Notes under the pieces: model-generated
Database searches by the model: none
What the model saw: the letters and a program-made list of their open reading frames with translations, nothing else
What the model was told of the DNA's origin: nothing
Position numbers and translations under genes: made by a program
Assembly: GCF_037975245.1 (NCBI RefSeq)
Contig: NC_092565.1
Location: 18,827,999 to 18,891,998, forward strand
Direction of reading: 5' to 3'
DNA length: 64,000 nucleotides
Source: Apostichopus japonicus
Lineage: Eukaryota > Echinodermata > Holothuroidea > Aspidochirotida > Stichopodidae
Shown: piece after piece, positions 6,105 through 37,100 of the stretch
Layout of the letters: each line of letters opens with the position of its first letter
Numbering within the stretch: position 1 is the first letter of the stretch

Positions 6105-6933
6105 AGCGATCACTTACCGGTAATTTTGTTGCAAATACGCACAGTCTTCTCTTTCCAGTCGTTTTCATGTAGAAATGTTTTGATACTCGACCATCACAAG
6201 TTGAAACAACGATATCTTCATACGTTGATCTACGTTTCCGCATAAAACTTACGTAAATCATGTTGTAACGCTTATAATAACATTATTGAGTCATCCTGAC
6301 TGTCATAACCCTTGTTCAGAAAGCTCATCTACCGGTTGGGTTTTACAGTGTAGCTTGAGCCCTCTCCCGCCACCTCTGTACGTTTCTAAAATTTCAGTGG
6401 GATGAAACATACATTAAAGCTGTGGAGGGGGCATATAATGTAATTAATCGCTACCGCCTGATTATACGTTTGTAAAACTATGTAAATATATCCAAGAACG
6501 CATAGTATCACCCGAACTGTAACATTCTAATCGGAGGATCTAAGATGTATAATTATACTGCGCACTTTCAACTGTATGGAAGCAGTGTGGGAACATATCA
6601 AGTACTTGGATGTAATGCGATACACTGTTTCACTTATTCTTGAGATTTGCGATTTCGAAAATATAGCGATAGAGATATCTGTTTATATTTGACGAGTATT
6701 TACCCCCCCCCCCCCCTTTTTCCTTTAAGAAAGAGAATAAGATCTTTTCCTATTCATTATATAACAAAACCTGATGCCCCTTACCTCAAAGCAATAATAT
6801 ATATATGCCATAAAAAGTGCTATTTTTTACTTCTTCTGGGTTCATTATTCAATTTTCGTGTTGAGTTTATCATTCAATATAATTTCTGTTAGTCTTATTT
6901 TAATTTTCCCCATTTTTGTGTTTCAACTTCCAG
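6105..6933. other. Gene-free stretch before the MCT terminal exon
   Basis: This should be intron if the exon at 6934 belongs to a full gene. It contains a C run at about 6703-6716 and a pyrimidine-rich tract just before the splice acceptor. No penultimate MCT exon like the one at 38612-38755 is recognisable here. Confidence 0.5.
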
Positions 6934-7139
6934 GCGCAATATTTGATATAACTGGCTCATATACCATGGCTTTCGTTATCAACGCTGGTCTATATCTCTT
7001 TGGAGCGGCGCTTCTTATTTTTTTACAATGTTGGAAACATTTGCGGCGCAAAAGACGAAGGCGGTCCCGTCAGAGTGTCCATAAGAATCCGTCCTCAGAC
7101 CTTCAAGGTGTTGACAGCCACATCGAAGTGAATGACTGA
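6934..7139 (+). CDS. MCT/SLC16-like transporter, last exon only (paralogue)
   Basis: An acceptor (CTTCCAG) is followed by an open frame of about 68 residues to a stop at 7137-7139. The translation starts GAIFDITGSYTMAFVIN, a last membrane segment, then a very basic stretch (RRKRRRRSRQSVHK) and ends SHIEVND. It aligns along its length with the last exon of the complete transporter at 39584-39819 ([10 protein letters not shown]..., basic stretch, SVHK, GVD.QIE). Both use the same phase. The remaining exons would have to lie before base 1 or are lost. A stray duplicated exon is possible. Function is inferred from the intact neighbour: a proton-coupled or facilitated carrier of monocarboxylates in the plasma membrane. 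Confidence 0.75.
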
Positions 7140-11993: not shown

Positions 11994-12873
11994 ATGAGTT
12001 TCGATGAATATATGTGTCATGGTAAGGAACTAGGTCTTACAGGAAAAGAACTATTAGACTTCGCTAGGGGAACGGGAACAAATCCAAAGGGAACGTGAAC
12101 AAGTCCAGAGGGACGAACGCCAAGCGCTTAGAGAGCTTGAAGCAAAAGATAAAGAAAGAGAACATGAAACCAAAATGAAAGAGTACGATTTAAGACTGGC
12201 AGAAGAGCGAACAATGGCAGATCGTTCTTTTAACGAACATGAAACAAGAAGGGTTTCAAGGGCTGTTGAAAGTAGAAGATTGCCAAAATTGCCGAGTTTC
12301 GACGATAAAAATAACAATATAGACAGCTATCTCAGGCGTTTTGAGAGATATGCTGAAGCCATGGAATGGGGGAAAGAGGACTGGGCACTGCCACTAGGGG
12401 CGTTGCTCACTGGTAGGGCTCTTGAAGTATATTCCAGGATGGGTGACATAGAGGCAAAAGACTATGACCAATTGAAAAGGGCACTTTTGAATAGGTACGA
12501 ACTTAATGAAGAAGGTTATCGCAGGAGATATCGTACTGCAAGGATCCAAAACGGGGAGACTTATGCGCAGTATGTAGTCGGGTTGAAAGGGTACTTACTG
12601 AGATGGGTAGACATGGGGAAAGGCACTAGAGACTTTAACCCATTGGTTGATTTACTGTTAAAGGAACAATTGAGTAATATGTGTGGTAGAGATTTGTCTT
12701 TATTTTTGAGGGAAAGATGCCCCACTGAGATCAAAGAAATGGCAGAGCTTGCCGATAAGTACGTTGCGGCACACGCAAAACGGGAAGACAGAAATTGGGG
12801 TGAAAACAGGTATCAAAGTAAGGTAAAGAAAGCTAGTACTGAAGCTAGTACTGAGAGTGTTGAACCTAGCTAA
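11994..12873 (+). pseudogene. gag: Ty3/gypsy gag, frame-broken
   Basis: An ATG at 11994 opens a short frame (MSFDEYMCHGKELGLTGKEL) that ends at 12098. The rest of gag runs in another frame from about 12066 to the stop at 12871-12873. The long part has a charged, glutamate/arginine-rich coiled N-terminal half and then a capsid-like region (LPKLPSFDDKNNNIDSYLRR, GALLTGRALEVYSRM) typical of metazoan Ty3/gypsy gag. The two parts are offset by a frame change near 12066. The CCHC nucleocapsid motif follows in the next frame (see 12857). Gag would build the particle that carries the element's RNA. Low similarity of neighbours excludes a host gene. Confidence 0.8.
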
Positions 12874-14311
12874 GGCTCGTGACACTAGAACTTGTTTTAA
12901 GTGCAATCAAACAGGCCATATTGCCAAATATTGCCCGTTAAAAGGTCAAAGGTTTAATAAGTCTGCAGCCCTCCAAACGATAGGGAAAATGTCTGCTGGA
13001 GCAGGGGTAGATAAGGCAAATGAGAATCAGTCACTAGGTGCTTGCATAAAGCAAAATCATGTAAAAGATAGACATGATCGCAAACCTGGCACGTACATTA
13101 GGGTGCCATCAGGAACAGAGGTTCCGGTGATCAGTGCAGTTAACGTAGAAGTCGGTAAGATACCTGTAAAAAGGGGTTTAGTGAACAAATGTCTGGTGGA
13201 CGTGTTGAGAGATAGTGGTTGTAGCACAGTGGTAGTGCGCAAGAAGTTTGTTAACGATGAACAGTTTACAGGTGAAACACAGACTTGTGTATTATTAGAT
13301 GGCACTGAAAGAGATGCGTCTGTAGCATTAATATCTGTAGATACACCATTTTATGTAGGAGAGGTGGAGGCATTGGTAATGGAATGCCCATTGTATGACC
13401 TTATTGTAGGAAATATAAGCGGTGTTAGGGATCCGAATAATCCAAATTCAAACTGGGAGGTCACACAGGTGACCAAAAAGATAGGTGTACTGGGTGCAGA
13501 AGGGGGATTAGCTCAAACACGTAGTCAAAGTGAAGTCAGGAAAGCACTTAGGCCTTTGGCTGTAGCGAATGCACCAAGTGTAGTAACAAAGGAGAAAATT
13601 CTAGATGCCCAAAGAAATGAGATTGGCTTAGCAAAGTTATGGAAATTAGCAGAAAAGGGTGAATCCAGACGATCGGGGAAGGGAAACGACACTAGGTTTG
13701 TCATTCGTCACGGAATGTTATTCAGGGAGTTTATGTCCCCAAAAGAACAGGACGTGCAACCTCTTGTTCAGTTGGTTGTCCCATCAGAGTTTCGTGGTCA
13801 TGTACTTAAGATAGCTCATGACTCTCCCCTGACCGGTCATTTAGGGTGTAACAAGACGTTAGATAGAGTACAAACGAACTTCTATTGGCCAGGTGTACAC
13901 GGAGATGTAACACGCTACTGTCTTTCATGTGACTTATGTCAACGGACGGTGCCAAAGGGTAAAGTTGGAAAAGCCCCTCTTGGTACCATGCCCATGATCG
14001 ATACGCCTTTTCGGCGGGTAGCGGTTGATCTCGTAGGCCCAATCACCCCCATGACCGACCGCAAAAACCGGTATATACTTACCGTGGTCGATTACGCCAC
14101 CAGGTACCCAGAAGCGGTTGCTTTGTCGGGTATTGATACCGAACGTGTGGCGGAAGCGCTTCTAGAGATTTTTACACTGGTTGGAATCCCAAATGAAATC
14201 CTGTCTGATATGGGAAGCCAGTTTATGTCTGAACTTATGAAAGAAGTAGGACGTCTTTTGTGTATCAAGCAGCTCCACACCACCCCATATATCCGCAATG
14301 CAATGGATTAG
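12857..14311 (+). pseudogene. pol: Ty3/gypsy CCHC-protease-integrase, truncated
   Basis: The 484-residue frame overlaps the gag stop in the +1 frame. In order it has a CCHC zinc knuckle (CFKCNQTGHIAKYC, residues ~12-25), an aspartic protease site DSGCST (~120) and, about 190 residues later, the integrase zinc domain (H..H...C..C, HDSPLTGHLGCNKT and CLSCDLC). The integrase core follows with first Asp in VAVDLVGP and second Asp in LSDMGSQF. The catalytic Glu region lies past 14311 in another frame, so a frame break precedes it, and homology ends near 14349. No reverse transcriptase lies between protease and integrase, the layout of Gmr1-like deuterostome gypsy elements, where it follows integrase; here that part is lost. 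No 3' LTR is seen. Confidence 0.85.
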
Positions 14312-17332: not shown

Positions 17333-20300
17333 ATGAGAGACTTTATTCGAAAAAGATGGGGCTACATCGTCTGTGCGGCTGGCTTTTTCATATGTTGTGG
17401 AATACTTTCCCCGATTAATTCCTATGGTAGACTGTTTACTGCAATACAAACCGACCTAAATACGACCACGGTACAATCTGGTAAGTGAACAAACTTAATG
17501 GGTAACTATAATGTCTCACTTATAGTTGATTTTCCTATACGGTATATAGTAAAATATTACGAAAATATAACATTCGTGTCCCCAAAGCATCAGTTAAACG
17601 TAATATCATATATACTAAAAATGTAAAGGTGTCATTTGAATGTTAAATTGTTCACTTACAAAATGTCAATCCATAAAGAAAAACAATACTCAAACAGTAC
17701 AATCTATTATTACCTGATGAATTTTGACAATTTACCATGTCCGAATTACAGATCTCTCGTTTTTTTCGGTTTCTGATCAAAACTTGGCAATGTGACTATT
17801 TTTACCAGTTGTCGAATTAATTAGATCGAGTACTGTTAATTGAAACAGTGTACGTGAACAGGTTAAACACAGGACGAGACATTTTCCATATGTTCATGAA
17901 AAATAGCATCGACTTTCGACAATTGCTGGTTGGATGCAGTAATTCACGTCTGTGACCATTAACTGAGAGTGAACAACTCATCACCATATTGAAATATTGA
18001 CATTTAAGGGCCAAACCTTGCAAGCAGGCACGTTAGCCAGCAATTCTGAGGTGGAAGGGCACCAACAATGTAAGGAGTGGCAAAAACAATATGAGGACGG
18101 GTATCACAATAAAAGGACGGGAACCAACAATATCAGGAGCGGCACTGACAATATATGGCGTGGCACCACCAATATAATGAGTGGAAAAACATTATCATGA
18201 GTGGCACCAACAATATAAGGACGGGTACAACAATATAAGGACGGGCACCAACAATATTAGGACGGGCACCAACAATATCAGGAGCGGCACTGACAATATA
18301 TGGCGTGGCACCAACAATATAAGGAGTGGAAAAACATTATCATGAGTGGCACCAACAATATAAGGACGGGTACAACAATATAAGGACGGGCACCAACAAT
18401 ATCAGGACGGGCACCAACAATATCAGGAGCGGCACTGACAATATATGGCGTGGCACCACCAATATAATGAGTGGAAAAACATTATCATGAGTGGCACCAA
18501 CAATATAAGGACGGGTACAACAATATAAGGACGGGCACCAACAATATCAGGACGGGCACCAACAATATCAGGAGCGGCACTGACAATATATGGCGTGGCA
18601 CCAACAATATAAGGAGTGGAAAAACATTATCATGAGTGACACCAACAATATAAGGACGGGTACAGCAATAAGGACGGGCACCAACAATATCAGGACGGGC
18701 ACCGACAATATCAGGACGGGCACCAACAGAATAAGGACGGGCACCAACAATATAAGGACGGGCACCAACAATACAAGGCAGGGCACCAACAATATAAGTA
18801 CGGGCACCAACAGAATAAGGACGAGCACCAACAATATAAGGACGGGCACCAACAATATAAGGACGGGCACCAACAGAATAAGGACGGGCACCAACAATAT
18901 CATGACGGGCACCAACAATATAAGGACGGGCACCAACAATATAAGGACGGGCACCAACAATAGAAGGACGGGCACCAACAGAATAAGGAGGGGCACCAAC
19001 AATATAAGGACGGGCACCAACAGATAAGGACGGGCACCAACAATATAAGGACGGGCATCAACAATATAAGGACGGGCAACAACAATATAAGGACGGGCAA
19101 CAACAATTTGAGGACGGGCACCAACAATATATGGACGGGCACCGACAATATAAGGACGGGCACCGACAATATAAGGACGGGCACCAACAATATAAGGAGT
19201 GGCAAAAACAATATAAGGAGTGGCACCAGCAATATAAGGACGGGCAACTACAATATAAGGACGGGCACCAACAATATAAGGACGGCGCCAACAAAAGGAC
19301 GGGCACCAACAATATAAGGACGGGCACCAACAATATAAGGAGGGGTACCGACAATGTAAGGACGGGCACCAACAATGTAAGGAGTGGCAAAAAACAATAT
19401 AAGGAGCGGCACCGACAATATATGGAGTGGCACCAACAATACAAGGACGGGCACCAACACTCATATCCTGTAACTTGTAAAAGTTTGGTACTCACGGTGG
19501 TGGTACAGATCGGGGCGATGACGTAATTTTAGCGGCAAATTTAAATCAACATTTCATACCTAAATTGTTATGTTATGAACACCTCGTACAAACCTTCAGA
19601 ATTAATCTCATAATTTCTATCAAAATATTACTGTACACTACATGGACTATTGAAATCGGAGATCAAAAACGTGTCGATGTTTCTTGATATTGACTTCAAT
19701 CCTCTCTCACCTGTCGTATATAAATAAATACACACTCTGATCTACCAAGCTTACAATCATTGGTAACAGTTTGAGCACAGCGCCCCGCTAACTCCTTCAA
19801 ATAGCCATGGAGGTAAATCTGTGTTTACCTCCATGAAATAACTCACGTATCCGTCGAAACAGCTGTTACTGAAAACATAATTATTTTAAAGGCAACCGTG
19901 TTCTGTTAGTGTTTATTGTTTTGGATGTTTCTCCAACAGGCTACTTGCGTAGGCATTCATTTGCATCTCTCCTAATTCTGATCACTTCGCGGTCTTTCGT
20001 TAAAGTGTATTCAGTATAGTGGTTATCAGACCGTCGTGATCACGTTGTCACGTAAGGGGACAGTCGCTGAGTGCCGCAGCACAGTGAACTTGTTTCGCAG
20101 TAGCCTGTCTCTTAGAGACACTATTTATTTATTTTGGTTTTATCTTAAACTGAAAATAAAAAATAAAAAAATATATTCAAGCTAATATCCAATTGTTGGA
20201 TTTCCGAATCGTGCAAATGCGCATTTCTCTTTAGCGCAAATGTGGCTTCACGTACTGAACATTCGACCGTTGCCATGGCAACCAAAATCTCCAACAACTT

Positions 20301-23300
20301 TTCTTCTTGTTTTTTTCTGTAACATAGGCTGGATCGGATCCATCTCATGGGCTAATAGCTTTTTTTTCAGTCCACTTGCTGTTGCTATCGAACGCTGCAT
20401 CGGTCATCGGTTGACGGTAGTTCTTGGATGTACGCTTGCGTCATGCTGTTATCTTGTGACGTCATTGATGACAACCTACATAGGAGTGCTGGTGTGACAG
20501 GGAATAGTGTCCGGGCGTCTCACGGACACTATTCCACGGGAATTGTGTCCGTAGGACAACTTTCTCGGGGGGAATTGTGTCCGGCGGACAGTATTATCTG
20601 TCCGGACGGACACTATTAACTAGGAAAAAACGTCCGTGTGTGGTGATTATCTGTCCGCGCGGACAGGATGAGAGAATAGCACGGATAAATGTGTCCTACA
20701 AGCTCTTCTGCATGGAAACGTAGTGCAAAAACATCAGGACTGCAAGGCTTCTTTGGAGTACGCCTTTTCATCTTAATTGCATTTCTTAATGGCAGGATTT
20801 ATAGAGGAACTTTAGACCAATTTCACTACATGATGAACGGCTGAAATATATGGTCATTAATGATTTCTTGCATGATACTATTTGGACAGACACAAATGAA
20901 TGGAAATATCAATTTAATTTAAAATTTATTGCAAATTTAATTCTCCTTCATGTTCTCTGCTGCATAAGATAAATACATTTCTATAAAATGACAAAAGTGC
21001 TGCAAGACTCGTGCAACATCCTACGTCTATTGTGACATAGAACAACTGTATCTGTTTCTTTATTTTTAGTACAAGCTGTTTCAAATACTTTGTTTTATAA
21101 AAAATCATCCGATTTCCCTTCTACTTTTAATACTAATGCTTGACAACCATTGACAATAACAGATAGCCTCACATATAGTAACTTTTGAAATCTTGGGGAT
21201 CTCAAGACAAAATGACATTCACATGGAAAAAAAGGTTACATAAATCAAAGTAAACCATGCTTTGGCGTCCACAGTTGTAGCCTAGCAGTATTTGTTGGTC
21301 AGGCAATCAATTCAAGGTAGACTACTGTTAATCCAATTATCGACAGGCTGTGAATGTGAACTATGGTGAAAATACTTGGGAATTCCTTTTCATGTGATAT
21401 ATTTTAAGATTGGGCAATGCCTAGCTGGTTGGAAATGGTACTTGGGAAGCAATATAAAATCATATGGTATAGGAGGAGCAGAGGGTTTGTGTAAGGTGTT
21501 TTCGTGTGTTCATGACATATCAACGATCGAATCATGATATATTGCCTGCACAGTCAGGCAGTGCATTATTCATTAGAAGGTATTTCCAAACGAATATCTC
21601 ACCATGCACAACTGGTATTGATAAACACCAAAAACGTTTGTTGCTACGATGTATTGTTAATGGACATAAAGGCCTCTAAGCTATATCATTTATTTTCAAC
21701 AAAAATCAGCTGAAAGTATGTTGCATTGGCTTCAAATATGCCAGATACTAAAATATGGTCACCTATGGTCAAAATTATTGTTTTTGTACCACCTGTAGGA
21801 AATTTACCTCACTGGGACATTCTGTCCTTTTGCATGTTCTTTTAAAATGTCTGAGAAAACTTTGGAGATTATAAAGACCTCAAGGAAAGTACTTCTTGAT
21901 GTCACAATACAAGTTTGTGGCCTATACAGACTACCTTCAAATGACATGCTGCTGGTCACACTAAGTATCAGGCTTAATATAAATACTGGGAAAGGAGGCT
22001 GTGTGAGAACCAGTTCTACTACACTCAGATTGTTTAGTGTTAGTCAAAGTATCTCAATGACTATTGTTCAAATGTTGGAAAAGAAAAAAAAAATGAATTA
22101 GGGCTAATTAGGAAATGCAAGCTGAAGCCAGTGAAATCATATTTGTACACAATTCAGACAACTTGGTATCAGTTAACATTTCTCTTGCTTTTGTCTACAT
22201 ATTTGGCCCACCTTTTCCTTTGACATTAAATATTCTTTGCACTAAAAGTTTGGCCTTGACACAGTCAACAGTATAATCACTTGAATCCTTTACTGGGGAG
22301 CATCCAAGGCCAGTCAACACTGAAAATAAAAATACACATATATACACATACATATGTACACATATACAAACATATACACACATACATACACACATACATA
22401 TACATATATATATATATATATCTATACAAAACGTACAAGTGCAGCTGTCTACAATAAATTATCCAGATAACCATTTTGTAAATAAATAGCAGCACGATAA
22501 ATAAAACTATTTCTATACACATTAATTCTGAATTTTGGTGTTATTGCTTTGTTTCTCAGATTATACCTAGTAGTTTCTCGAAGTAGAGAGTTAAGTTCGG
22601 TTTGCAAAGAATGTCTGTCATTTCTCTGTATGCAATTTACACTTCTAATGAACTCATTTTTAGCAGCATTGTTTACAGTACTCATAAGAAAGTTAAAATC
22701 TATATTAAAAATTTTAGAACAATACTTTAAAAAAAAAAATTCTCTTATTATCTTTAATTCGTAAAAAGTGATACCAAGCAGAAACAGCATATATTAGGTG
22801 TGGTAAGATATTGGCAGTAAAAACTCTTTTCCTTACATCAACATGGAAATATGGAACTATATACGATAGAGTTGAGACTATGAAGTACACCCGTTTAAGT
22901 ATTCTGCTTATATGACCACTGAAACTTAGTTTGTCATCAATACAAACACCTAGATATACTGTATGATGAGTGCGTTCTACTTCTGCATCTTTAATTGAGA
23001 TTTTAGTTAACTTACATGATAAAAGACCTTTTCTATGAAAACGCTTATTCAGTTGCAACAACTACATAATGCATCACAGATAAAGAAACTATATCCCAGT
23101 TGTTACTTGCCTTGATATACTTGAATGGCATATGAGGACAGCTGTCAAGTAGCATCTATGCATAAACCAGGCTGTGGTTTCTCTGATCCAACATGAGTAT
23201 CATTTCATATGAATGGGACATACTGACACACTTGATCTTAGTAATACAGCAAGAAGTGACAAACAGTATATTCACAATGACAGATGCTGACACAAATGAC

Positions 23301-26026
23301 CACTGATAGCCTGCTTGTACTCATTCAATGTGATACATACTACAGTAAATATGAGATTTCTTCCAGCTTCCTCATCTTGAGATATCAAGTTTTAAAGGTT
23401 TACAAAATTTGACCACTGTTAATCTCCACAATAACAAAGGCCTCTTTTAGCCATGTGGTATACTTACAGACTAAATATGATATCTGTTCAGCTTCCTTTC
23501 TTGAACTTATAATTTACAAGGTTTTCACAACTTGAACCCTGTTTACCCTTTGACATCCACCCCAAAAATATAGGATATAATCAATATGATTCACATACAT
23601 ACCAAATCTTACATTTTCCAAGCTTCCCTTCTTTTTACCTGAAGAAAGACGAACTAACTGCCATTTACTGTCCTGGATGTGACACATGAGTTTATAGATT
23701 ACAACTACCAATAGAACAACTTAATTTCTATGTGTGGTAAAATATATGCTTGTAATGTGAGACTTTTGTTAGAATTTTGTCACCTTAGAGTCCTTTGAAC
23801 TTCACAATCAACAAAAACAATCCCAGGATTTACTTATACCATCATTCTGACTGGAGTTCTCTGGGAACATTGCTCTTGATTCAACCTTACAATGACATTA
23901 CTTATGCATTATAAGATAATAGAAATACTAATTCTATTCAGTATACTAATTGTGTGCATATTTTTCTCCTTGCCAGGGGGAGAAAAACAGACCCTTTGAT
24001 ATATGTGGAGGGGGAGGAAGTGTGTGTGTGAGGGGGGGGGGGGTTATAAATTGAAGTGTGGTTTGAACAGAGGGAATGTGTGAATTAAATATTGCTTAAT
24101 ATAAGGACACTTATTGCCGTTTCCAAAAAGTGATCTGACAGCATTTATGCTTTGTTTTCTTGTTGCTTGTTGTTTTTAATCTAACTTGCACATATAAACA
24201 TACTTAAACTTCAAGCAGGATTTTTTTTCTGGAATTGTCTATCAGTGGGGGTGGGGGGACAAACAATAACGATATGCATGAAAGAAAGAAACCTTTTTAT
24301 CGTAAATTATCAAGTTCTTGTCTTAACCGCTGGTTGTTATACTCAAACACCTGATCATCTCCAACCTCATCATATTCAGCTTGGATAGCCCTGGTAAAAT
24401 GCTCTGACCCTTGGCACCAACCTATACCTAAACATAAAAGTTTAAAATAATTGACTGAATAGAGAAGTTAATAAGTAACCACATTCAAGCTAAAAAAATG
24501 CATGTTTACACCACATATCATATTGAAAAGATAATTGTGCATCAGGATCATTACTTTGGTAAGCTTTTGCCCAGTTGACTACAGGCTGCTTCAGCTTCTG
24601 TTTCGGTGCAACCTGTGACAAGGTGGTAGAGATGGTCCACAGCATGAGAGACAAGAACGTCATTGAGGTAATTCAGCCTGCAGAAAAGGACGCATGAATA
24701 GTAAGCATTGCTTCAAAGTTACAGAAATTAAATAGAAAGTAAATATTACTGTGAAAACATGATTTCAGCAATCATTACGAATGGGTACTTCAAATTAATG
24801 TATGTTGCAGCATTCGGCAATAACAAGGTGAAGCATTCAGACTAGCAATATTGTTTATTGCCACAAATGCAGATCTGATCCTCCATGAGCATGCGAGCAT
24901 TCAGACTGATCCCCCAATTGTGGGTCTGATCCACCGTGAGCATGTATGGAGTATATTCAGACTAGCATGTCGTTCGCCCTTGTGGGTCTGATCCTCCTTA
25001 ACCATGCAATAATTTATACCATCGGATGTTGATCACCCAAATTGTAGGGTCTGATCATCCTTGAGCATGCGAGAATGCAAACTATAGCAAGTTGATCGCC
25101 CTTGTAGGTCTCGTCCTACTTGAGCATGTGAGATTCAGACTAGCAAGTTGATCCCCTCATTTGTGGGGTCTGCTTGATCCTCCTTAAGCATGCGATTATT
25201 CAGAGTATAGCAACTTGAATCCCCAAATGTGGGATCTGATCCTCCTTGAGCATGCGAGCATTCAGATATACAGTATAGCAAGTTGATAGCCTATTGAAGT
25301 CTGTACGCATTCCTGTGTATTGTATCAAGGCCAAGCTTAGAGTGAGATCTGATCAAGTGTGACCTATTTGCAGCACTAAGGTCAAACTGTTGCAAACAGA
25401 TCTCTGTTGAATCAAAGCAAAGAACACAATCATAGCACACTAGAAACTTACTTAACCATGAATTGTAAAAATAGGCCTTACGAAAATTTTTTGAAAAACT
25501 TGCCACTTGGCCAGTGTAAGGGATTCCCTCTCTCCTTCAGCTATCATAGCACAGAAAATTCCTTGGGAATATTATTATAATATTACTCATATTACTAGCA
25601 ATATTGTGAGCAATGCCATGTGCTTCTTTCAAATAGCGTTAATTCAATGATGTAACATGAGCTGTTTTTTTTTCATGAATCTGGCATAATTTATAGTTAT
25701 AGGGTGTACAACTTACTCGATCTTAGTAAAGCAGTGTGATGTGACAAACAATAAATTTGCAATATCACAGGCTATCCTGAAATGATGATGACCTCAACAA
25801 CAGGTTTCTTTTAATAATTGTGATACATCAACATACTAAATATGACATCTGTCCTTTTGAAATATTGTGTAAAACATGGTTTTCACAATTTGAACCCTCA
25901 AACGATCCATTGACCTCGGCCATAGGCGTACGAGGCGGGGGGGGGGGGCAGTCTTAAAAAACAAATTTCCAGAGGACAAGAAATTCAGGCAAAAGTCCTG
26001 AAAAATTCGGGCAGCCTATGAGGAGA

Positions 26027-26101
<75 letters not shown>

Positions 26102-29100
26102 TATATATATATAGATATATATATATAGATATATAGATATATATATGCAGTAGCTTGCCCAAACGTTTTTCAAATTTTTGCCCGACAATTCATTGATTTT
26201 CTTTATTTAGCATCATGATGCCCGAATATTTCCGTGTAACACCACCGTAAGCGCAGCTCACCTGGGCTACCACGCTTTTTGCACGATCAATTTTTTTCTA
26301 ACTAGTCAACTGTATACCTGGACATCTCCGACATGAGTTTATATAAGAAACATTTTCTTTTTGATGGAATGGATGGTGGGGGGGGGGGGGGAGTGCCTAC
26401 AAGCCTAGAAGTACAGGTTTACCACATTCTTTGTTACATTTTATACTGTTTTGTGAGACAAATTGCAGTCTCACCCGACATAGCGACATTATCCCGCCTA
26501 CGTGTCGTTGAACAATGAATGTTTTTCTGGAGGTACTGTAGCTGAGTACTGTGTTATTATAATAAATACGGTAACTAAATATGAGCTTAAAAATATACTG
26601 TCCTATTTTTCCTCTTCAAAGTGATGTAACCATTTTTTCTTCCTCTAATTTGCCAAATTTTTGTAGGGAAGTGTAAATTTCTAAAATATGAGATTATAAA
26701 AGAAAGAATGTTTATATGCAACTTGCAAGGCCTCAGATGTGCCGTTCCCGGCAATCTGGGAGGCTTTTTTTGCCAAAAATGTTCCTGTACGCTACGCGCC
26801 AACCGATGGTGGCGCGCCGCTTAGATAGTGTCACGGGAACTTTCGGACACAAAACTTTCTGCCCCCCAAACTAAAATGGTCCCGTACCCCTATGACCTCG
26901 GCCCACAACATTAGGCTTCTGACCCAAATGACCTTAAACAATACAAAACCCTTCTTGTGCTCAACAATGTACTCTTTTGCACAAACTATGGGATCAATCT
27001 AAGCTTCGATTCTTGAGATATCGTGTTTACAATGTGGGCGGTACACACATGCCAGCATGAATGAGTAGGTTACAATTATTATCAAAGCCAGGAAAGCTGC
27101 TCTTCAGAAGTTGAACATTATATTGCAGAGTTTCAAACTGACATCACATAAAATTATCTTCTCGAAACTAAAACAAATGAAATTTAATTTCTGAAAACAA
27201 TTGTCAGGAAACTGAAGTTTTCTTCTAATTAACTTATTCCTGTCTTTATTATTGTTGAATGGTTAATTTGTTAGGCCATTAAGTCGAAACTGATTTATTG
27301 TGTGAATACAGCTACAGTCCTTTACCCTCACATAAGCCAGCAAATACTCAGAACTGATTAAGTTGCTGACTATTTTTAAGGAAATTCTGGAGGAATCATG
27401 CCAATCCTCCTCCTCCCCCACCCCCCCCCCCCCCCAAAAAAATACTGCAAAGAAATCTTACTTGTGCAAAATTCTTTAAGTAAAATTAAATTGAATTTCT
27501 TCTTCTGAGGAAGGCCTGTGGTACTGTTCATAAGTGTGTACAGTCCTTTCTCATTCACAGCCTTCACTTCATACGGCCCAATTAGCCGAGAGTTTTCAAG
27601 CTTCCCTCCTATTCGGGCATCCTTTCTAGCATTCCGTACGAGAACACTGGAACCAACTTCGAAGCTCTGAATAAAATAAAATCCAGCAGATATACGTAAA
27701 CATCATAATACAATGCATATGTTGCCATTCATTTAACTACAACTTCAATGTACAACATAGCATTATATAATTACCTTTTTTGGTGCCTATTATCCAAATT
27801 CTTTTTTTGCCGTTCTTGGGCTTTGCCAATATTTTCTTTCACAACACCTTTGATTATGTCCCACGACTGTGACATGAGTTGAAAAACCCTCTCCCGCTGT
27901 GCATCGCTGCAGTCTGTACTTTGGAGCTTCTGGTTGGACAATGGCGTCTTCAATGTCGACTGGTAGCATTGCTCTCTGGATATATGAAGATAAATTAACA
28001 ATCAATTATTCACAACACTTTGTTGACTGAAGAATAAATAAATTTTTATATATTTTATTTTCACTATTAAGACCATTGAACCAGAAATTTGAGTCACATG
28101 ACATACTCAAACCAGCACAAATATAAAACCCATATATATATTCTGTGCTGTTATACGTCCAACTTGCATACCAGCCAATTATGATAAATATATAGTATAT
28201 ATATGAAAAACAAAACCAATGTCAGTGGCATTAATTGCATGTATCTTTTAAATTAATGGGCATGCATTTACAGTTTAATGAATGTTCATATTTTGTACTT
28301 GCTGCAGAGTGTACCATATACAGGGTTAATATTTATTTGTTTAGATATTGTAACTTAAATTGGGTTATTGATGGTCCTCTATTTAGCGGTTTTTCCCAGG
28401 ACCTGGCATGTGTCAAATTAGATTTTATCATACAGAGGACTGGTGTAGCTATGCAAGATTTGTCCAAACTCTCTTATCCCTGATTGCTTTTCTCTGTATA
28501 TGGCCTTAGCAAATGTAAATCTCTATTCAGCAATGGTAGGTTTAAATTATTACAAACCTTCCAAACATCACAGCAAAAGGTGAAAGACCTATTGAACCAT
28601 GTTTGGCTGTATGGTACCCCATGAGAACTGAAGACAGCATTTCATCTCAGTCATCTTGGTTTTCATTGACAACCTTGATGAGTGACCTTTGCAGAGTTTG
28701 GTTGAATCTTTCATCAAGCCCATTGGTATGTGGGTGGTAGCTAGAGGATTCTCTGTGTTACACCCCTATCATGTCAAACAGGGACTTGTTCAGAGCATTA
28801 ACAAATTCTCCTCTCTGGTCTGAGATGACAATTTTCATGCACCCAAATCTAAATAAATGGAAACATTTAAATAACTATTGTTAAAGTATTGATTACGAGT
28901 AATGTAATGAACTACTGGCATCTGCAGAATGGCTGCATGGTTTAATCAGGAAATCATTTCAGCACTGATTTAAAAAAAAAATTAAGTTAAAAGCACTGAC
29001 CATATCCCACTAACATTTTATTGACATTAACTTAAAAAACAACTTCTATAAATTCCTGTAACCATTTGGCCGCTTTCTGGGTCACAGTTAAAACAGTGCA

Positions 29101-32100
29101 AATGCAGGTCTGCGTAACTAATTCCATGTAAAGTAGATGGATATTTACCTGGCCATGGTTTCAAACAGAAAGTTTGCAACAGTTTTTGCTGTTTTGTTTC
29201 TTACAGCAACAGCCTCTAGCCATTTTGAAAAATAGTCACATAGGGCTTATATGATGTACTTATTTCCATTGATGGTCTCTGGAAGGGGTCCAATCATATC
29301 CACACCCATCTAAAAAAAGAAGTAAAATGGCATTCAGAACCATACACAATCTAATCATACAACTGATGTTCAAGTGATTTATATCTGAGTTTTGTAAAAT
29401 GCTAAACATTCAATTTTTTTTATTTTTTTTTTATTGTAACTCACACTGGAAGACTCTGTTACCAATTTTTTTCTTCATTACCAAACCTATTACTTACTGA
29501 CTTGTCAAACCCAACTGTTATATGGAAGTCCAATGGGAAATCTCTGAAGTGAGATGCAAATCACATGCAGTGATCTAGCTGACAATCTAGCTGGTAATTG
29601 TCACTAGGGACTATCATAGTACCTGGATGAGTGATTGATAGTTAGTCAGAAAATTGCCTTGGAAAATGTCAGTGAGATGACAGGGTTACACCTAACTGAT
29701 GTAGGAAGCATACATTGGTACAACCATGGAGTTTACCTCCATCGTACAACCTGTACTTTGGTATATATATATTGTAAGCATTTAGAAATGTTAGAAATTA
29801 ATCTTTGAAGGGAATTTGCAGAATTTTTTATATTAATGACAGAAATTCACACTGTAGAGTTACAGTATGGAAGGAAAGACTTCTTGGTTATTAACCAAGT
29901 AGCAAATTTTACTTAAATAGATGTTGAAATAAGCATATGGGTTCATTGGGGATGAATTTTGGACAAAAGGATATGGCTTTGTTGGTACTTTAGTTATGAA
30001 CTGCATATGAATGTACTACCTAGGACATTTTCTCGGATACTTCTTTATGACAACAATTCAACTACTGAACTCTGTTATGTTCATGTGTCATTCTTACTTC
30101 ATATCACAATTCAGTTTTCTTTTCATTTTGAAATTCATATCAGATAATTATGAAGTCCTATGTAAAGGTTTTCCTGTTGCTTTAATTATACGCAGCTAAA
30201 AAAAATACCAACATGTGTTCTTAGCGGAATTTGTGTTTATGGCTGCAGTACATGAAAATTCGCGACGGTACTGCAAGTCATTAAGTCTACTGAATGTACC
30301 ACCATCATGATCATCTTTAATATATGCTTAGTAAATTATAACTTTAAGAACAAATGAATGAGCTAGATCTTTCATTCTCTGGGTAATCTCCACACATACT
30401 CCTTATACTCTTGCACTGGCCAACAAAGGGATGCAAACTTTAAGCATCGGTTGATAACTTGATATGCATATGGTGAATGACATAGGCGTAGGAGCCTCAT
30501 TTGATTTGGGGGGGCTGTAACGACTTGCCCGAAAAATATAACCAAAATTTTTTCGCGCGCTCCACGCGCGTTCCACATGTTAATGTGCATATCATATAGG
30601 CATCCATCAGTTATTAAATCACCTGCCAATAACATAAAATCATTTTCCGTGTTATTACCCTTCCATATTGGTTAGAATTATTGGGGAAGTCGTTACAACA
30701 ATAATGATAATAATAATAATATAAGATTAACCATTGAAAAACACATTGCAAATTCTTCATCATTTTCACTAGGTGCCAGTGGCGGAGCTAGGGGGTATTT
30801 GGTCAGGGGGGGGGGGAGAGAATGGTCTGTAGGGGCGCTTTTGACACTATCTAAGCGGAGCGCCACCACAGGTTGGCGCGGAGCGTACAGAAATTTTTTG
30901 AGTAAAGTTACTCCCTAGATCGCCGGAAATGACCCTTCCCGAGCCTTGCTAATTTGCAGGTAAACGAAGAATAAATAGGTGTCATCGCCATTTGTCAGAA
31001 AATTGCACCAACAAAATGTGACAAATGTCAATAGGTATTTGAGAGCGCAATAAAAAAGTCAATAATCGCGAATAAGTAAAAAGTGGTAAAAAGCTGAAAG
31101 GGCGCCAGCAGTCCATTTGAGTCCGTCAGGGGGGGGGGGGGGCATCCGCTCCCTCTGACTGTATGGACGCTCCGCCACTGGTAGGTGCACGCAAAGTTCT
31201 CAGCATATTGCCCAAATTTTCACCAAAAAAAATTGTGAAAAAAATGCAAATTATTATTCTTTCAGTAGGTGCCCGAAAAAATTCTTATTCTCGAATTTTC
31301 ACCAAAATATTGAAAAACACATTGCAAATTATTATTCTTTCAGTAGATGCCCGAATAATTCTCAGCATATTGCCCGAATTTTCACCAGAATATTGAAAAA
31401 CACATTGCAAATTATTATTCTTTCAGTAGGTGCCCGACAAAAATTCTCAGCATATTGCCCAAATTTTCACCAAAATATTGAAAAACACATTGCAAATTAT
31501 TATTCTTTCAGTAGATGCCCGAATAATTCTCAGCATATTGCCGAATTTTCACCAAAAAAAATGAAAAACACATTGCAAATTATTATTCTTCCAGTAGGTG
31601 CCCGAAAAATTCTAAGCATTTTGCCCAAATTTTCACCAAAAAAAATTGTGAAAAAAATGCAAATTATTATTCTTTCAGTAGGTGCCCGAAAAAATTCTTA
31701 TTCTCGAATTTTCACCAAAATATTGAAAAACACATTGCAAATTATTATTCTTTCAGTAGATGCCCGAATAATTCTCAGCATATTGCCCGAATTTTCACCA
31801 GAATATTGAAAAACACATTGCAAATTATTATTCTTTCAGTAGGTGCCCGACAAAAATTCTCAGCATATTGCCCAAATTTTCACCAAAATATTGAAAAACA
31901 CATTGCAAATTATTATTCTTTCAGTAGATGCCCGAATAATTCTCAGCATATTGCCGAATTTTCACCAAAAAAAAATGAAAAACACATTGCAAATTATTAT
32001 TCTTCCAGTAGGTGCCCGAAAAATTCTAAGCATATTGCCCGAATTTTCACCAAAAAAATTGGTTGGGGGGGCTGCAGCCCCCCCAGCCTCCTACGCCTAT

Positions 32101-35100
32101 GAGTGAATGACTTTGCAGTTACAATCATACAAACAAATATTGCTTTTAGATGACAAAAAACAAAGTGATTTAGTAATAACTGTGCCGCTTGTGAACAGTA
32201 TTTTCGACCCAGGCCTAGCATTTATAAGCTGAACGCATAAGGTGGTCCATATGTATTCCATTGACATGTAAGGCCTATGAGCTAGGATAGGTATTTGAAG
32301 AAAAAATACATGTTACACAACTTCCATTGCAGATTCCATCAAAATCAGGTGTACATGTGCCTCCTGCTGAAATGCCGATGAAAATAATACTTAGGTGGTG
32401 AAATTGTCACCACTCGCATCCTACAAGGACTCTTACAGAAATAGAAATGAACCGGTATTTCTATTGATTTAGACACCTTCTCAGATCCCTTTCTTTCAAA
32501 TTAGGGTCTTATACCAAAATACTCCTATCATTTGGTCAAATAAGTTCATGATAACATGTGGGATAAAACGAAAGCAAATTGTTGTGCATTTTTATTTGCT
32601 CTCTTTTCAATTGTTTTTCTCAACACCCAGCTATCCTCCTGAATAGAAATTTATTCACCCACCCTAAAATTTGTCAAAGAGATTACACTAGGCCTATATT
32701 AGTTTTTAGGTCCATTCTGGTCACTATTTTAGCAATACTACAGTATATCACCAAGCAGTGTCTTCATGTGATAATACATTGCAAATTTAATATAAATGAT
32801 ATAAACTTGGTTTAACCATGGAGCTATAATCCCAGGTTTATAGCTCCATGGTTTAACCTGCACTAATTTAATTGCAACATTGTTTTGTGCATATATTAAC
32901 AACCTTAATTACTGTGGTAGAATGTTTAATGAATATTCATACCATAACCATGTACATGTTTGCATAATTAAAATATCACCAGCAAAAAGGCCTATTAAAT
33001 CGTACATTATTAGCCAACACAGCTAACCTTCTGACAATGAAGTGATGGGCAGGTGGCCAACTGATTACCTATAGCATATATTCGACCTGCTGCAGTGTCT
33101 GTGCACATCCCGGCAACAATGTATTAAAAAAATATGGGAAAACCTCTAAAAAGAAAGAGATAATAAAGTAACACTCATTAATTTAATTGATCCTCCAAAA
33201 TGGACAAGACAGGGACCCCCCCCCCCTCTCCCTTGCTACCTTGTGTTTTAACTAGTAAGGGGACTAATCCCAGGACATATCTTTCAGAAAATCTGAAAAG
33301 TCCTATCCTGAAGATTTCTTTTTGTTTGTTACCTAGCAATTTCAAACACATAATCATTATTGAAATTAAAAGCTTGTATATTGATGGTAGCATGGGTACA
33401 CACTACACAGCTGATATGTAACTGACAGCTGATCCGGAAGATTTGGAAGCTACCACAGTAACATAAATTATACCAAGTAGGTTTATTTCAGAGATTGCCA
33501 ATTGGAGTGGCTTAAATTTGAATAAAACAAATTATTTGCAAATAGGGTTAACTCTCGAAATCCTACTCCTAGGCTACAGCAGGCTAGCCTATAGTAGCCT
33601 AATACTATTCGTGTCTTGCCGATTAATTATGCATCACGATATTCTCTAACACTAATAAAGTTTAGACTTTTCAGTTCTACTCTTAGGTGATTACAAATAA
33701 TAAAATATACCTATAATCTGCAAGGCCCAAATGGCCAATGCACTTAGTTCAAGTTATATGCATCTATGGAATCATTTTGGCCTGACTTTGGAATCCGTAC
33801 CATATGAATGTGCAAGCTTAATTCGAATCGGCAGAATAACAACTGTATAATCCGGCTGAACGTACGTTTCTTCAGTGGAAATAATTCCTAAAAGTTTTAT
33901 ACAAATAAACAAATAATACACTTACCGCCAAACCCTTCTTGTAAGCTTTAATTTTGTGGGCTTTGGCCAAGGGCCTATCTTCGTTGCCATGTGGGCCGAC
34001 GTAAACTAGATTGGCATCTCCCGTCAGTCTAAAGCTCTTCGATCTTCCCCTTATCGATCTTTCTGGATTTAACGTAGACTTTTCAGGGTACAGTCCTGAC
34101 GAAAGATATTTTCCAATGATAATGTAGGCCTACTCGTCATCGGTATCCACCTCAGGAGAAGTCATCTTGTAATATCAGATCGGGCTAAGTAAGCTAACGG
34201 TCTCAACTCTTAATGCAATTACTGTGCGTGCAAATATTCAACTACTAAGAAATTTTGGGCTTGCGACATGTAACGTTAACGACGTAGACGGCACATTCGG
34301 CTTACTTCACTGAGTAAACAGCAGTATACATTTTACAGTAGAATGCAAATACGCATGCGTGAAATAAAAACTTTGTCACACCCAGAACGTAGAGCGGGAG
34401 ATTTCCACATTTCCCGCGTACTGAATAAAATATATTGACTCTGACCAGGAGTTTTTCCATAACAACTCCCTGCTCTGACCCCGGATTTGACCTCCATGCT
34501 CCGGATGGCGGGGAACTTTCCGCCGCCGCGTACCGGTTGAAATACATTTACCTTCAACCTCTACATGGTTGATCTTTCTCCAACGTTTAGAAATTCCGAC
34601 CTTCCAAACAACTACCCTAATGGTAGTAACGATTGATAAGCAGCAGAGTCAGACAGACATGACTAATTAGTTCGGAAGATAAGTTTAACATTCATTATGC
34701 AGCCTTCTGACAGTCGACGATCGAAATAGAGCGGACAGCGTCCCTCTGGAGTGTAGTCTCCATGATAATAATAACATTTTGCCACCTCTTCCCACAACAG
34801 TCGACACTGGAAGTATTAGTTATGCTTTAACCGAGTTTTGAGGGTGCATGCTGACCGATATATAACATTGTCAACCTGGTCTTCGCTAGTAAATTACCTC
34901 CTTTTAAGTAATAAGGGAACATAGATAGGGCCAGAAATGTTTGTCACTCAACAGAACCACGTTAAAGCTCTTTAAAGAGAACCCGGACACTTTCCACGGT
35001 GGCGTAGAAAGCAAGGGAAAGTGTCCCTGAGACACTATTCACGCAAATGGGACACTATTTTCTAGTAATAAGTGTCCTACGGACGCCCGGACACTCATTA

Positions 35101-37100
35101 CTGCCACACTGGCATTCTTAGGCATTATATGCGGTACAGCACTTTGCTTCTCTATACACGCAATGATGTGTGTTCTCTTCAAAGCGTTCGCTGATTCTGG
35201 TCGTCAGTCAATGGCTATGAGTATCGCACTTGTAGGGGCTTCAGTTGGTAAGAAACTTTCAGTAAGTTTTAATTAATTGATATAATTTATTTCATTGTTC
35301 ATTTCTTAAATTAACTTTCTTAGTGACATTTGCAGTGGTTGAATGCATAGTATAGATTCATTCGATTACATGGAAGCACTCAGAGGGACATGTTTTAAAT
35401 GCTTCCCTCCTCTCTTAAACCCGTCTCCTCCTCAAATAATGCGCGTTTGATAAGTTTTACAATTAAGTCACACCCTACAAAGCTTATTTATAATATTCTT
35501 GTTAAATCAAAACTTCTGACACCCACCCCCCATCCCCCCTCCGGAGCTGTTTCTAAGTCGGAACAAATTGGAAACTTCAATTGCAACTGGAATAATGTGT
35601 TCCTGTTACCTAATTTTCAATTAAGATTTATTCATAGAATAATTGGTACCAACTTCTTTCTTCACGAAAGACGACTCCCGCCTTTGTAGATTTTGAAATT
35701 CTGAGGATGAGACCCGCGAACTCTATTTTGGTCCTGTCCAGTTTACTGAAATGTATTGGCAAGCTATTTCTGCAACATGTCTTTGATAATAACCTTTGAC
35801 CTCAATTGAGAATATGTGATTTTTGGATTATTACCGTATATGAAATGAAGAACCCAAGCAACTTGTTTATACTGTATGCAAAATATTTTATTTTCAATTG
35901 TAAAATGCATAACAAAATTCCTGACGTATCCAGTTTTCAATGTAAGTTCCTCTCTGTGAGACAAGTAGATCGTCATATATATTGCTTAAATTGTAATTTT
36001 CAACACGGAACATGTTTGAAATATTATTCTGTGGCAATTGGTCAATTTCTATATATTCTTAAATGGTAAACCACTCTCTTTATTTCTTCGTAGGTACCAT
36101 TTTTCTCTCCTTGACCTACGAGAAGATTGTACCTATCATAGGATGGAGACAGACGCTTCAATTATCTTCTGCCTTCTGCGCGATACTTTCCATCCCTGCG
36201 TCATTCTTGGTCACTGCAAGAAATGAGACATCGACTAAGTCAACGGAAACAACCACCGCTGTGATTGACGAGAAACAAGAAAGTCATAAAAACGAAGATA
36301 GACCCATCTCATCGATAAGTGACAAGGTTGATAGAAACATAGTAGATCAGTCTGCGGTAGATACTACTAAAGTTCGGGACAAGCATTGGCTACGCCTCAT
36401 CGTGTTATGGAGGGCGTGGTTCATATTCTTCGCTATGTCATTTCCAGCAATGTCTTGGTCTGTGTATTGGGTGAATTCGGTAAGTGTCTAGTTTTATAAG
36501 TACCGATGTTTGTTAGAAGTTAAAATCTAACGTTATAGCATAAAAATTAACCAACATTCAATGCTGATCTAACATGTCATTGGTATAATAAGTTATATAT
36601 ACAATATTATTCTTTCTTCCTGGAGCAGTGGCGTGCGCATGGTTTCAAAAGTTGGTCGCTAAATTCTAAATTCTGATTTAGGTAAAGGCATGACCGCTGT
36701 GAAAGGGGCGGAGACGAATGACAGATTTTTATAAAGGAGAGATGTGGCCCTGTGGTCGACTGCCATGTAAGGGGGGGGGGGGGGGTCCTCTTCCAGAAAC
36801 AATAACAGTTTAGACGTCGAATGGTGTAATCTATGGTATATTAAGACTTTAAATTAGGTCTATAATTAGGATTAAACTTGTACACTCGGAAGAGTGGTCT
36901 TAATAGTCCCTGACTGAAAGTACAAATCACCCGACTGAACTATTTCCCCCGACTGAAGATGGAAGTGGACGGGCTATGACCCCTGTCCCCCTCCCTTCCC
37001 TTGAGCACGCCAATTTCCAGAGACATTCAAAATATGTGTACTAAAAATTGCAACTGTCACCATACATAGAATAGTATATACAAAATAATAATAATAATAA

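Follow-up and report, generated by a model that had tools for sequence, protein, structure and literature searches.

Ginger1 DNA transposons are described as having TGTNR ends, terminal inverted repeats (TIRs) of 40–270 bp, 4-bp target-site duplications of CCGG or CCGT and lengths of 2.6–7 kb (Bao, Kapitonov and Jurka 2010; PMC2836005). Their transposases have an H2C2-DDE-GPY/F architecture, are encoded with 0–4 introns and end in an OTU or Ulp1 cysteine protease, one or other of which is found in all the families listed in that source with a known C terminus. The same authors propose that the ubiquitin/SUMO proteases found in transposases contribute to transposition. Here we describe a 14,616-bp non-autonomous Ginger1-like transposon in the sea cucumber Apostichopus japonicus, where it interrupts exon 2 of a gene for a transporter resembling the SLC16 monocarboxylate transporters (MCTs). 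The window, meaning the whole 64,000-nucleotide stretch that was analysed, is C5:18827999-18891998 and does not contain any N; the genome searched was an assembly of 671,581,487 bases in 35 contigs.

The locus is very probably explained by a young, coding-dead Ginger1-like copy that inserted in exon 2 of the SLC16/MCT-like gene, disrupting it, after being mobilised in trans by an autonomous relative. The non-autonomous copy would have inserted recently at a TGCTGGCA site, duplicating CTGG, and the transposase would most likely have come from an element with the same kind of ends. Candidate sources are elements such as those on contigs C12 (24.1 kb) and C9 (26.7 kb), which appear to encode an integrase-type transposase together with a USP deubiquitinase on the same strand.

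Structure of the insertion and of the interrupted gene

The transposon proper lies in plus orientation. The features of the insertion, with the evidence for each in brackets, are:

20489..20492, no strand: left target-site copy CTGG, formed of host codon bases (sequence ends and host frame)
20493..35108, plus: Ginger1-like non-autonomous DNA transposon, 14,616 bp (ends, duplication, other genome copies)
20493..20550, plus: left TIR, starting TGTGACAG (alignment of the two ends)
35050..35108, minus: right TIR, starting TGTGGCAG on the minus strand (alignment of the two ends)
35109..35112, no strand: right target-site copy CTGG (sequence ends)

The host gene, read from the joined reading frame, consists of:

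17333..17480, plus: exon 1
20328..20492, plus: exon 2, left part
35113..35247, plus: exon 2, right part
36094..36479, plus: exon 3
37864..38086, plus: exon 4
38612..38755, plus: exon 5
39584..39819, plus: exon 6 with stop codon

The element begins with TGTGACAGGGAATAGTGTCCGGGCGTC and ends with TGTGGCAGTAATGAGTGTCCGGGCGTC (reverse complement). These ends form a gapped, imperfect TIR of about 58 bp (TGTG...CACA), and its termini, TGTGA and TGTGG, both fit TGTNR. The ends are not a chance resemblance, as the 27-base left end occurs 71 times in the genome at no more than two mismatches while its reversed control does not occur at all, and 22 of 29 end-paired copies, the window copy among them, have identical 4-bp flanks. 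The insertion of a CTGG-flanked DNA transposon in the MCT-like exon is thus confirmed to base level. A long terminal repeat retrotransposon was rejected because the terminal repeats are inverted, not direct. PiggyBac, Sola, Academ and Chapaev transposons have 4-bp or TTAA duplications; as candidates for these ends they were dropped once integrase-type exons and TGTNR ends had been seen.

When the insert and one CTGG are removed, the six host exons join in frame into 1437 nt, encoding 478 residues and a stop with no internal stop codon; when the insert is left in place, the frame terminates after residue 105. An earlier note, made from these letters before any database search, had given this coding length, a stop at about residue 105 and a host exon free of other damage, all of which agree with the joined frame and its intact GT-AG splice sites. 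It had also reported inverted TGTG ends with CTGG outside each, which the end-to-end alignment bears out, and a transposon splitting an MCT-like exon, a claim now upheld by family copies across the genome, the restored frame and unbroken paralogue exons. Its span of 20489..35112 encloses a real insert but counts in both copies of CTGG; its transposon call was right as to the insertion and the exon but identified neither the family as Ginger1-like nor the larger coding relatives.

The predicted host protein matches Pfam MFS_1 (E 8.5e-23). All 12 of its matches among PDB sequences at E<=0.01 are monocarboxylate transporters, which places it beside SLC16 members (MCT1, MCT2, MCT8, MCT10), the best match being MCT1 (E 2.9e-11). 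It differs from SLC16 in that the usual helix-1 signature of MCTs is not seen; a loose form of that signature is found in none of the plus frames of the window, so the substrate of the transporter cannot be inferred. The ancestral exon 2 is taken to have been whole, since the homologous exon runs unbroken across the insertion site at three paralogue loci (L014, L018 and the overlapping L019/L020) at 35–49% identity. Locus L014 is part of a tandem paralogue (C5:18820841-18825325) that starts about 25 kb upstream of the host gene. A search of the assembly for a second copy of the host locus gave none; apart from the locus itself, the best matches over such lengths reach about half identity at most.

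The window allele is most likely a loss-of-function allele of the MCT-like transporter. It is improbable that the insert is instead tolerated as a new intron and spliced out with protein still made. Pairing 28 donors with 35 acceptors close to the two ends gives 980 combinations. Of these, 15 GT-AG pairs yield an in-frame, stop-free coding sequence of 422–494 residues, the best-scoring of them using the GT at 20461 or that at 20492 (host G and element T), and loss of function is therefore not proven. Against such splicing, none of the 15 restores the 478-residue length, and the two or three best have mediocre sites, with donors of 5–6 out of 9 and acceptors of 7–8 out of 11, which is at or under the bottom of the range of the gene's own sites (6–8 and 7–9) on the same ad hoc consensus count; in-frame removal of the insert is thus possible but unlikely. 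The insert would also be too young for its splice sites to have improved. A host gene already dead or dispensable, in which the insertion was neutral, is a less remote alternative, though still an unlikely one: the tandem paralogue upstream could cover the function, but the 478-codon frame and GT-AG sites are intact apart from the insert.

Two minor features adjoin this gene family. Intron 1 of the host gene contains, at 18040-19465, a degenerate tandem array of ggacgggcaccaacaatataa-like units of about 20–30 bp, recognised by eye. Window positions 6930-7094 on the plus strand (C5:18834928-18835092), which lie between the host gene and its tandem paralogue, are 48% identical to host residues 400-453 and may be the isolated last exon of a further paralogue.

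The transposon family in the genome

The 29 end-paired copies, which include the window copy, were paired by position only, from 40 scored of 74 left and 40 scored of 88 right candidates. The first 301 bases of family copies, in the same 40 scored left places, are 97–100% identical to the window copy. Twenty-two of the pairs span 12.3–14.7 kb and the other seven 15.7–25.6 kb, and all 29 right ends terminate in CACA. Two further whole copies, designated c12 and c20 in lower case and distinct from the 24.1-kb relative on contig C12, are flanked by CTGG/CCGG and CTGG/CTGG respectively, so that one of the two has a perfect duplication.

The left flanks of the 29 pairs are CTGG in eight, CCAG in five, CCTG in three, CCGG in two and other sequences in 11. 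Counted by hand, 22 fit CNNG, 15 fit CYRG and 22 are preceded by TG; the CNNG and preceding-TG counts suggest a favoured target resembling TG-CNNG-CA. An earlier tally of CTGG in 12 of 37 flanks was biased, some loci having been drawn with a query that contained host flank, and the count over 29 pairs is fairer.

Two rearranged sites were seen. At C20:20770424-20771300 one family copy follows another head to tail, the right end of the first and the left end of the second being 54 bp apart. The left ends at C3:22050928 and C3:22053068 are 2.1 kb apart and have identical host flanks, that is, a copy end and its flank have been tandemly duplicated.

Age of the insertion

For an estimate of age, four other copies (C21, C6, c12 and c20) were aligned whole to the window copy. 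The nearest, C21:533373-547573, differs at 31 of 14,126 aligned bases (0.22%, 95% interval 0.15–0.31%); the others diverge by 1.32% (C6), 3.09% (c12) and 3.42% (c20). Where all five copies align without gaps (12,062 columns), 12 substitutions are private to the window copy and 13 to the C21 copy. These two copies also differ by small indels, by length differences of about 60 and about 34 bases and by one 413-bp block, which belongs to the following feature:

31181..32058, plus: tandem array of 83-bp units, equal to 2.1 copies of a 413-bp block, one of which is missing from the C21 copy

These differences also bear on whether a transposon copy was misjoined into the exon during assembly, which is very improbable. 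Mis-joins are conceivable in a multi-copy, nearly identical family, but the private substitutions and the 413-bp block set the window copy apart from the C21 copy, complete ends and an exact 4-bp duplication stand on both sides of the insert in a window with no N, and a published assembly that matches in size is described as built with HiFi reads (PMC10344927).

The earlier suggestion that the insertion may be recent is supported by the closeness of the C21 copy and the few private substitutions. Heterozygosity in A. japonicus is given, for another assembly, as 1.59% from k-mers or about 0.73% from single-nucleotide polymorphism calls (PMC5638244). As 0.22% is below these values, the insertion would be younger than the typical separation of alleles, and polymorphism is likely. 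Two points weigh against this reading of its age. The resequencing values for nucleotide diversity of 0.00465–0.00526 (PMC9843871) apparently describe the top 5% of windows, so that mean diversity would be lower and nearer to 0.22% than 1.59% suggests, making the margin smaller; and gene conversion between copies could make the insert seem younger than it is. The window insertion is nevertheless young and plausibly polymorphic in A. japonicus.

Coding state of the window copy

Within the window copy, the minus strand retains remnants of an integrase-type transposase gene:

29148..29303, minus: fossil transposase exon A with the first catalytic Asp (VDMIGPL...); one stop, common to c12 and c20
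28557..28835, minus: fossil exon B with the second Asp and the Glu (SDQRGEF ... NGLDERFN); two stops, one common to c12 and c20
27774..27914, minus: fossil exon C
27469..27663, minus: fossil exon D with a GPY motif (GPYEVKAV, by eye; motif name as used in PMC2836005)

Of the three in-frame stops, two thus recur in c12 and c20, and the third is present in the window copy but in neither of those. The exon B frame matches Pfam rve_3 at E 0.0056, below that family's cut-off, and this weak match is the only one given by the six frames read with X at stops, among which no intact coding was found. When 150 of 1244 candidate genome matches to the DDE pieces were scored, the 38 best all carried at least one stop. 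Compared with the 24.1-kb relative, the window copy has no H2C2 exon and its USP-matching region is missing. With these losses and the stops in its DDE exons, the copy is judged coding-dead and predicted to be unable to make its own transposase. A family of about 13.6 kb that is coding-dead in this way would have spread by means of a transposase made elsewhere.

Also inside the transposon, at 22452-23061 on the minus strand, is a reverse-transcriptase-like C-terminal fragment, presumably CR1-like. It is present in the c12 copy as well, as an old nested insertion that has spread with the family.

Larger relatives with transposase and USP exons

A 24,145-bp relative at C12:11101394-11125538 has the same type of ends, a similar gapped TIR of about 58 bp and CCGG on both sides. 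It is only 85–86% identical to the window copy across both terminal regions, so that it is a relative and need not be the actual source of the transposase. Between 5773 and 16795 it matches the window copy in short pieces only, and from 18942 to 20614, the part that contains the H2C2 exon, it does not match it at all. The transposase exons appear intact, have GT-AG edges and can be joined in frame in the order H2C2-A-B-C-D by manual reading; one example, among several possible acceptors, is ...MFGRF-PLLPVDIEES.... Joined exons with edges slightly different from that reading score E 7.3e-16 for H2C2, E 1.1e-9 for rve and E 1e-13 for UCH, the Pfam family of USP. A GPY motif, GPYKVKDV, is recognised by eye, and a single FPFY (compare YPYY of Ginger1) stands in unconvincing context in a plus-strand frame about 0.8 kb upstream of the zinc finger. 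The DDE exon has ratios of non-synonymous to synonymous change (dN/dS) of 0.11–0.23 in the seven comparisons with the two more divergent members; three comparisons among C12, C9 and C17:21.02 have 3–5 changes each. In the C9 relative, the family ends are 26.7 kb apart.

Downstream of the transposase on the same strand lie USP pieces: NLGNTCYM (the Cys box) with QEDALEFL, a CxxC piece and SGHYSCAKRV...MNDG (the His box). In the 24-kb relative the first two have phases compatible for joining by manual reading. Two pieces were searched in the genome, giving 75 matches, and four loci (C12, C9, C17:21.03 and C17:15.97) have both of them almost complete; there the first piece is stop-free in three of four, C17:15.97 carrying a stop, and the second in all four. 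Both pieces contain stops and lack the Cys box at C14:0.54 and C19:31.06 Mb, and the remaining matches are for the most part a first piece that is cut short and carries a stop. The USP pieces of C12, C9 and C17:21.03 lie downstream of an open DDE exon of the same strand, at distances of 5.0, 5.0 and 9.7 kb respectively, and C17:15.97 has no DDE match among the 150 scored. Neither OTU nor Ulp1 was found on the gene's strand of the 24-kb relative or, on the opposite strand, in the part scanned (L106 1-9000). In the first USP exon dN/dS is 0.14–0.56 on 2–3 changes among stop-free copies; there are 0–3 changes per pair among three stop-free copies, and USP exon ratios are 0.34–0.56 against degenerate copies, with the stop-bearing C17:15.97 copy giving 1.12 and 1.40 in two comparisons.

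By analogy with Ginger1, transposase and USP may form one fused protein. It is possible, at rather less than an even chance, that the USP exons are instead a captured piece of a host gene, or a separate gene, and no part of the transposase. Three observations favour this and speak against fusion. The stretch from 7.2 to 10.8 kb of the C12 relative yielded no exon that would link D (GPY) with the first USP exon. The synonymous divergence (dS) of a subtelomeric copy from the C12 element is 0.56 for DDE but 0.095 for the USP exon, a hint that the two have had separate histories. The USP exons also show no clear signs of selection, the dN/dS values of the first of them resting on few changes. Fusion is favoured, on the other side, by the same strand and order of transposase and USP at three loci, by a USP remnant following the transposase in the subtelomeric family too and by the lack of any more distant host USP among the 75 matches, the weakest of which is 71% identical. 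Ginger1 itself offers a precedent, its transposases having an OTU or Ulp1 cysteine protease at the C terminus (PMC2836005).

Further transposase relatives, 75–79% identical to the query and with open frames, lie near chromosome ends (C19 31.17-32.30, C20 0.34-1.40, C11 0.20-0.53, C4 29.05-29.43, C14 0.22-0.63 and C21 0.26-0.44 Mb). Fifteen of 19 spacings between neighbours are 165–220 kb and the others 100 or 229 kb, as if these relatives belonged to a subtelomeric repeat with a very long unit. Several are followed, about 4–5 kb downstream, by a truncated USP remnant. They were set aside as an autonomous source, as the remnant starts at query residue 19-20 and mostly carries a stop. The truncated remnant also forms chromosome-internal clusters (C12 14.8-17.3, C22 10.5-12.2, C11 21.6-22.0 and C4 10.3-10.8 Mb), with no DDE match directly beside them among the 150 scored.

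Comparison with known systems

The sea cucumber family resembles Ginger1, as described in PMC2836005, in its TGTNR ends, a TIR within 40–270 bp and a 4-bp GC-rich duplication. The 24-kb relative adds a multi-exon integrase-like transposase with H2C2, DDE and GPY, of which the window copy retains DDE fossils and GPY, and its CCGG/CCGG flanks are those of Ginger1 targets. Both systems are associated with a cysteine protease acting on ubiquitin-like tags, C-terminal in Ginger1 and downstream on the same strand here, but it is a USP (Pfam UCH) in place of OTU or Ulp1. The family is called Ginger1-like because the ends, TIR, 4-bp duplication, H2C2, DDE and GPY agree, whereas CCGG specificity, OTU/Ulp1 and length do not.

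Several points weigh against this placement. The name derives from shared features, not from a transposase tree. The duplications are mostly CTGG, CCAG, CCTG and others, with CCGG in only two of 29 pairs, and the non-autonomous copies of 12.3–14.7 kb and coding relatives of 24.1 and 26.7 kb exceed 2.6–7 kb. A perfect duplication is absent from seven of the 29 pairs, one of which (C2:3203073) may have CCAG with two extra bases.

Other described systems share some of these features. Ginger2/TDD has in common an integrase-like DDE, TGTNR ends and, TDD-4/5 apart, 4-bp duplications (PMC2836005, PMC10045372), but is described as lacking GPY/F and as having an RTATAY target (PMC2836005), in contrast to the GC-rich targets and GPY seen here. 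GingerRoot and IS3EU, likewise with an integrase-like DDE, are reported with 6-bp duplications and mostly TA ends, and IS481EU, again with such a DDE, with duplications of about 4, 15 or 25 bp (PMC2836005, PMC10045372). A precedent for a USP-class peptidase joined to a DNA transposase is the Trichomonas protein XP_001314237.1, known here by description, which has a Peptidase_C19 domain; it is a protist protein of the Transposase_11 class, not of integrase type (PMC2836005). Among the papers listed in searches of open-licence PMC, none dealt with a Ginger element with a USP or with one from a sea cucumber; subscription papers and Repbase lie outside that scope.

Implications

The chances appear evenly balanced that the genome has a young lineage of giant Ginger1-like transposons (about 13.6 to 27 kb) whose autonomous members code for both an integrase-type transposase and a USP deubiquitinase, and that the window insertion is a segregating MCT null allele made by this lineage. 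If so, USP would be the third unrelated class of ubiquitin/SUMO protease recruited by the superfamily, beside OTU and Ulp1. Use of a USP in place of these would be convergent recruitment of a different protease class and would give independent support to the removal of ubiquitin-like tags as part of the transposition reaction. The many almost identical copies would make the role of the protease in transposition testable in this genome, and the clean insertion of near-zero divergence would mark a natural knockout open to genotyping. Disruption of a gene is in itself ordinary; the oversized, USP-bearing Ginger1-like family is the notable part.

Another mobile element in the window

At 12058-14311 on the plus strand are two overlapping open reading frames of 271 and 494 residues; the longer one has an integrase-like H2C2-DDE region and is truncated at its end. 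Named by eye, the pair looks like a Gypsy-type retroelement remnant.

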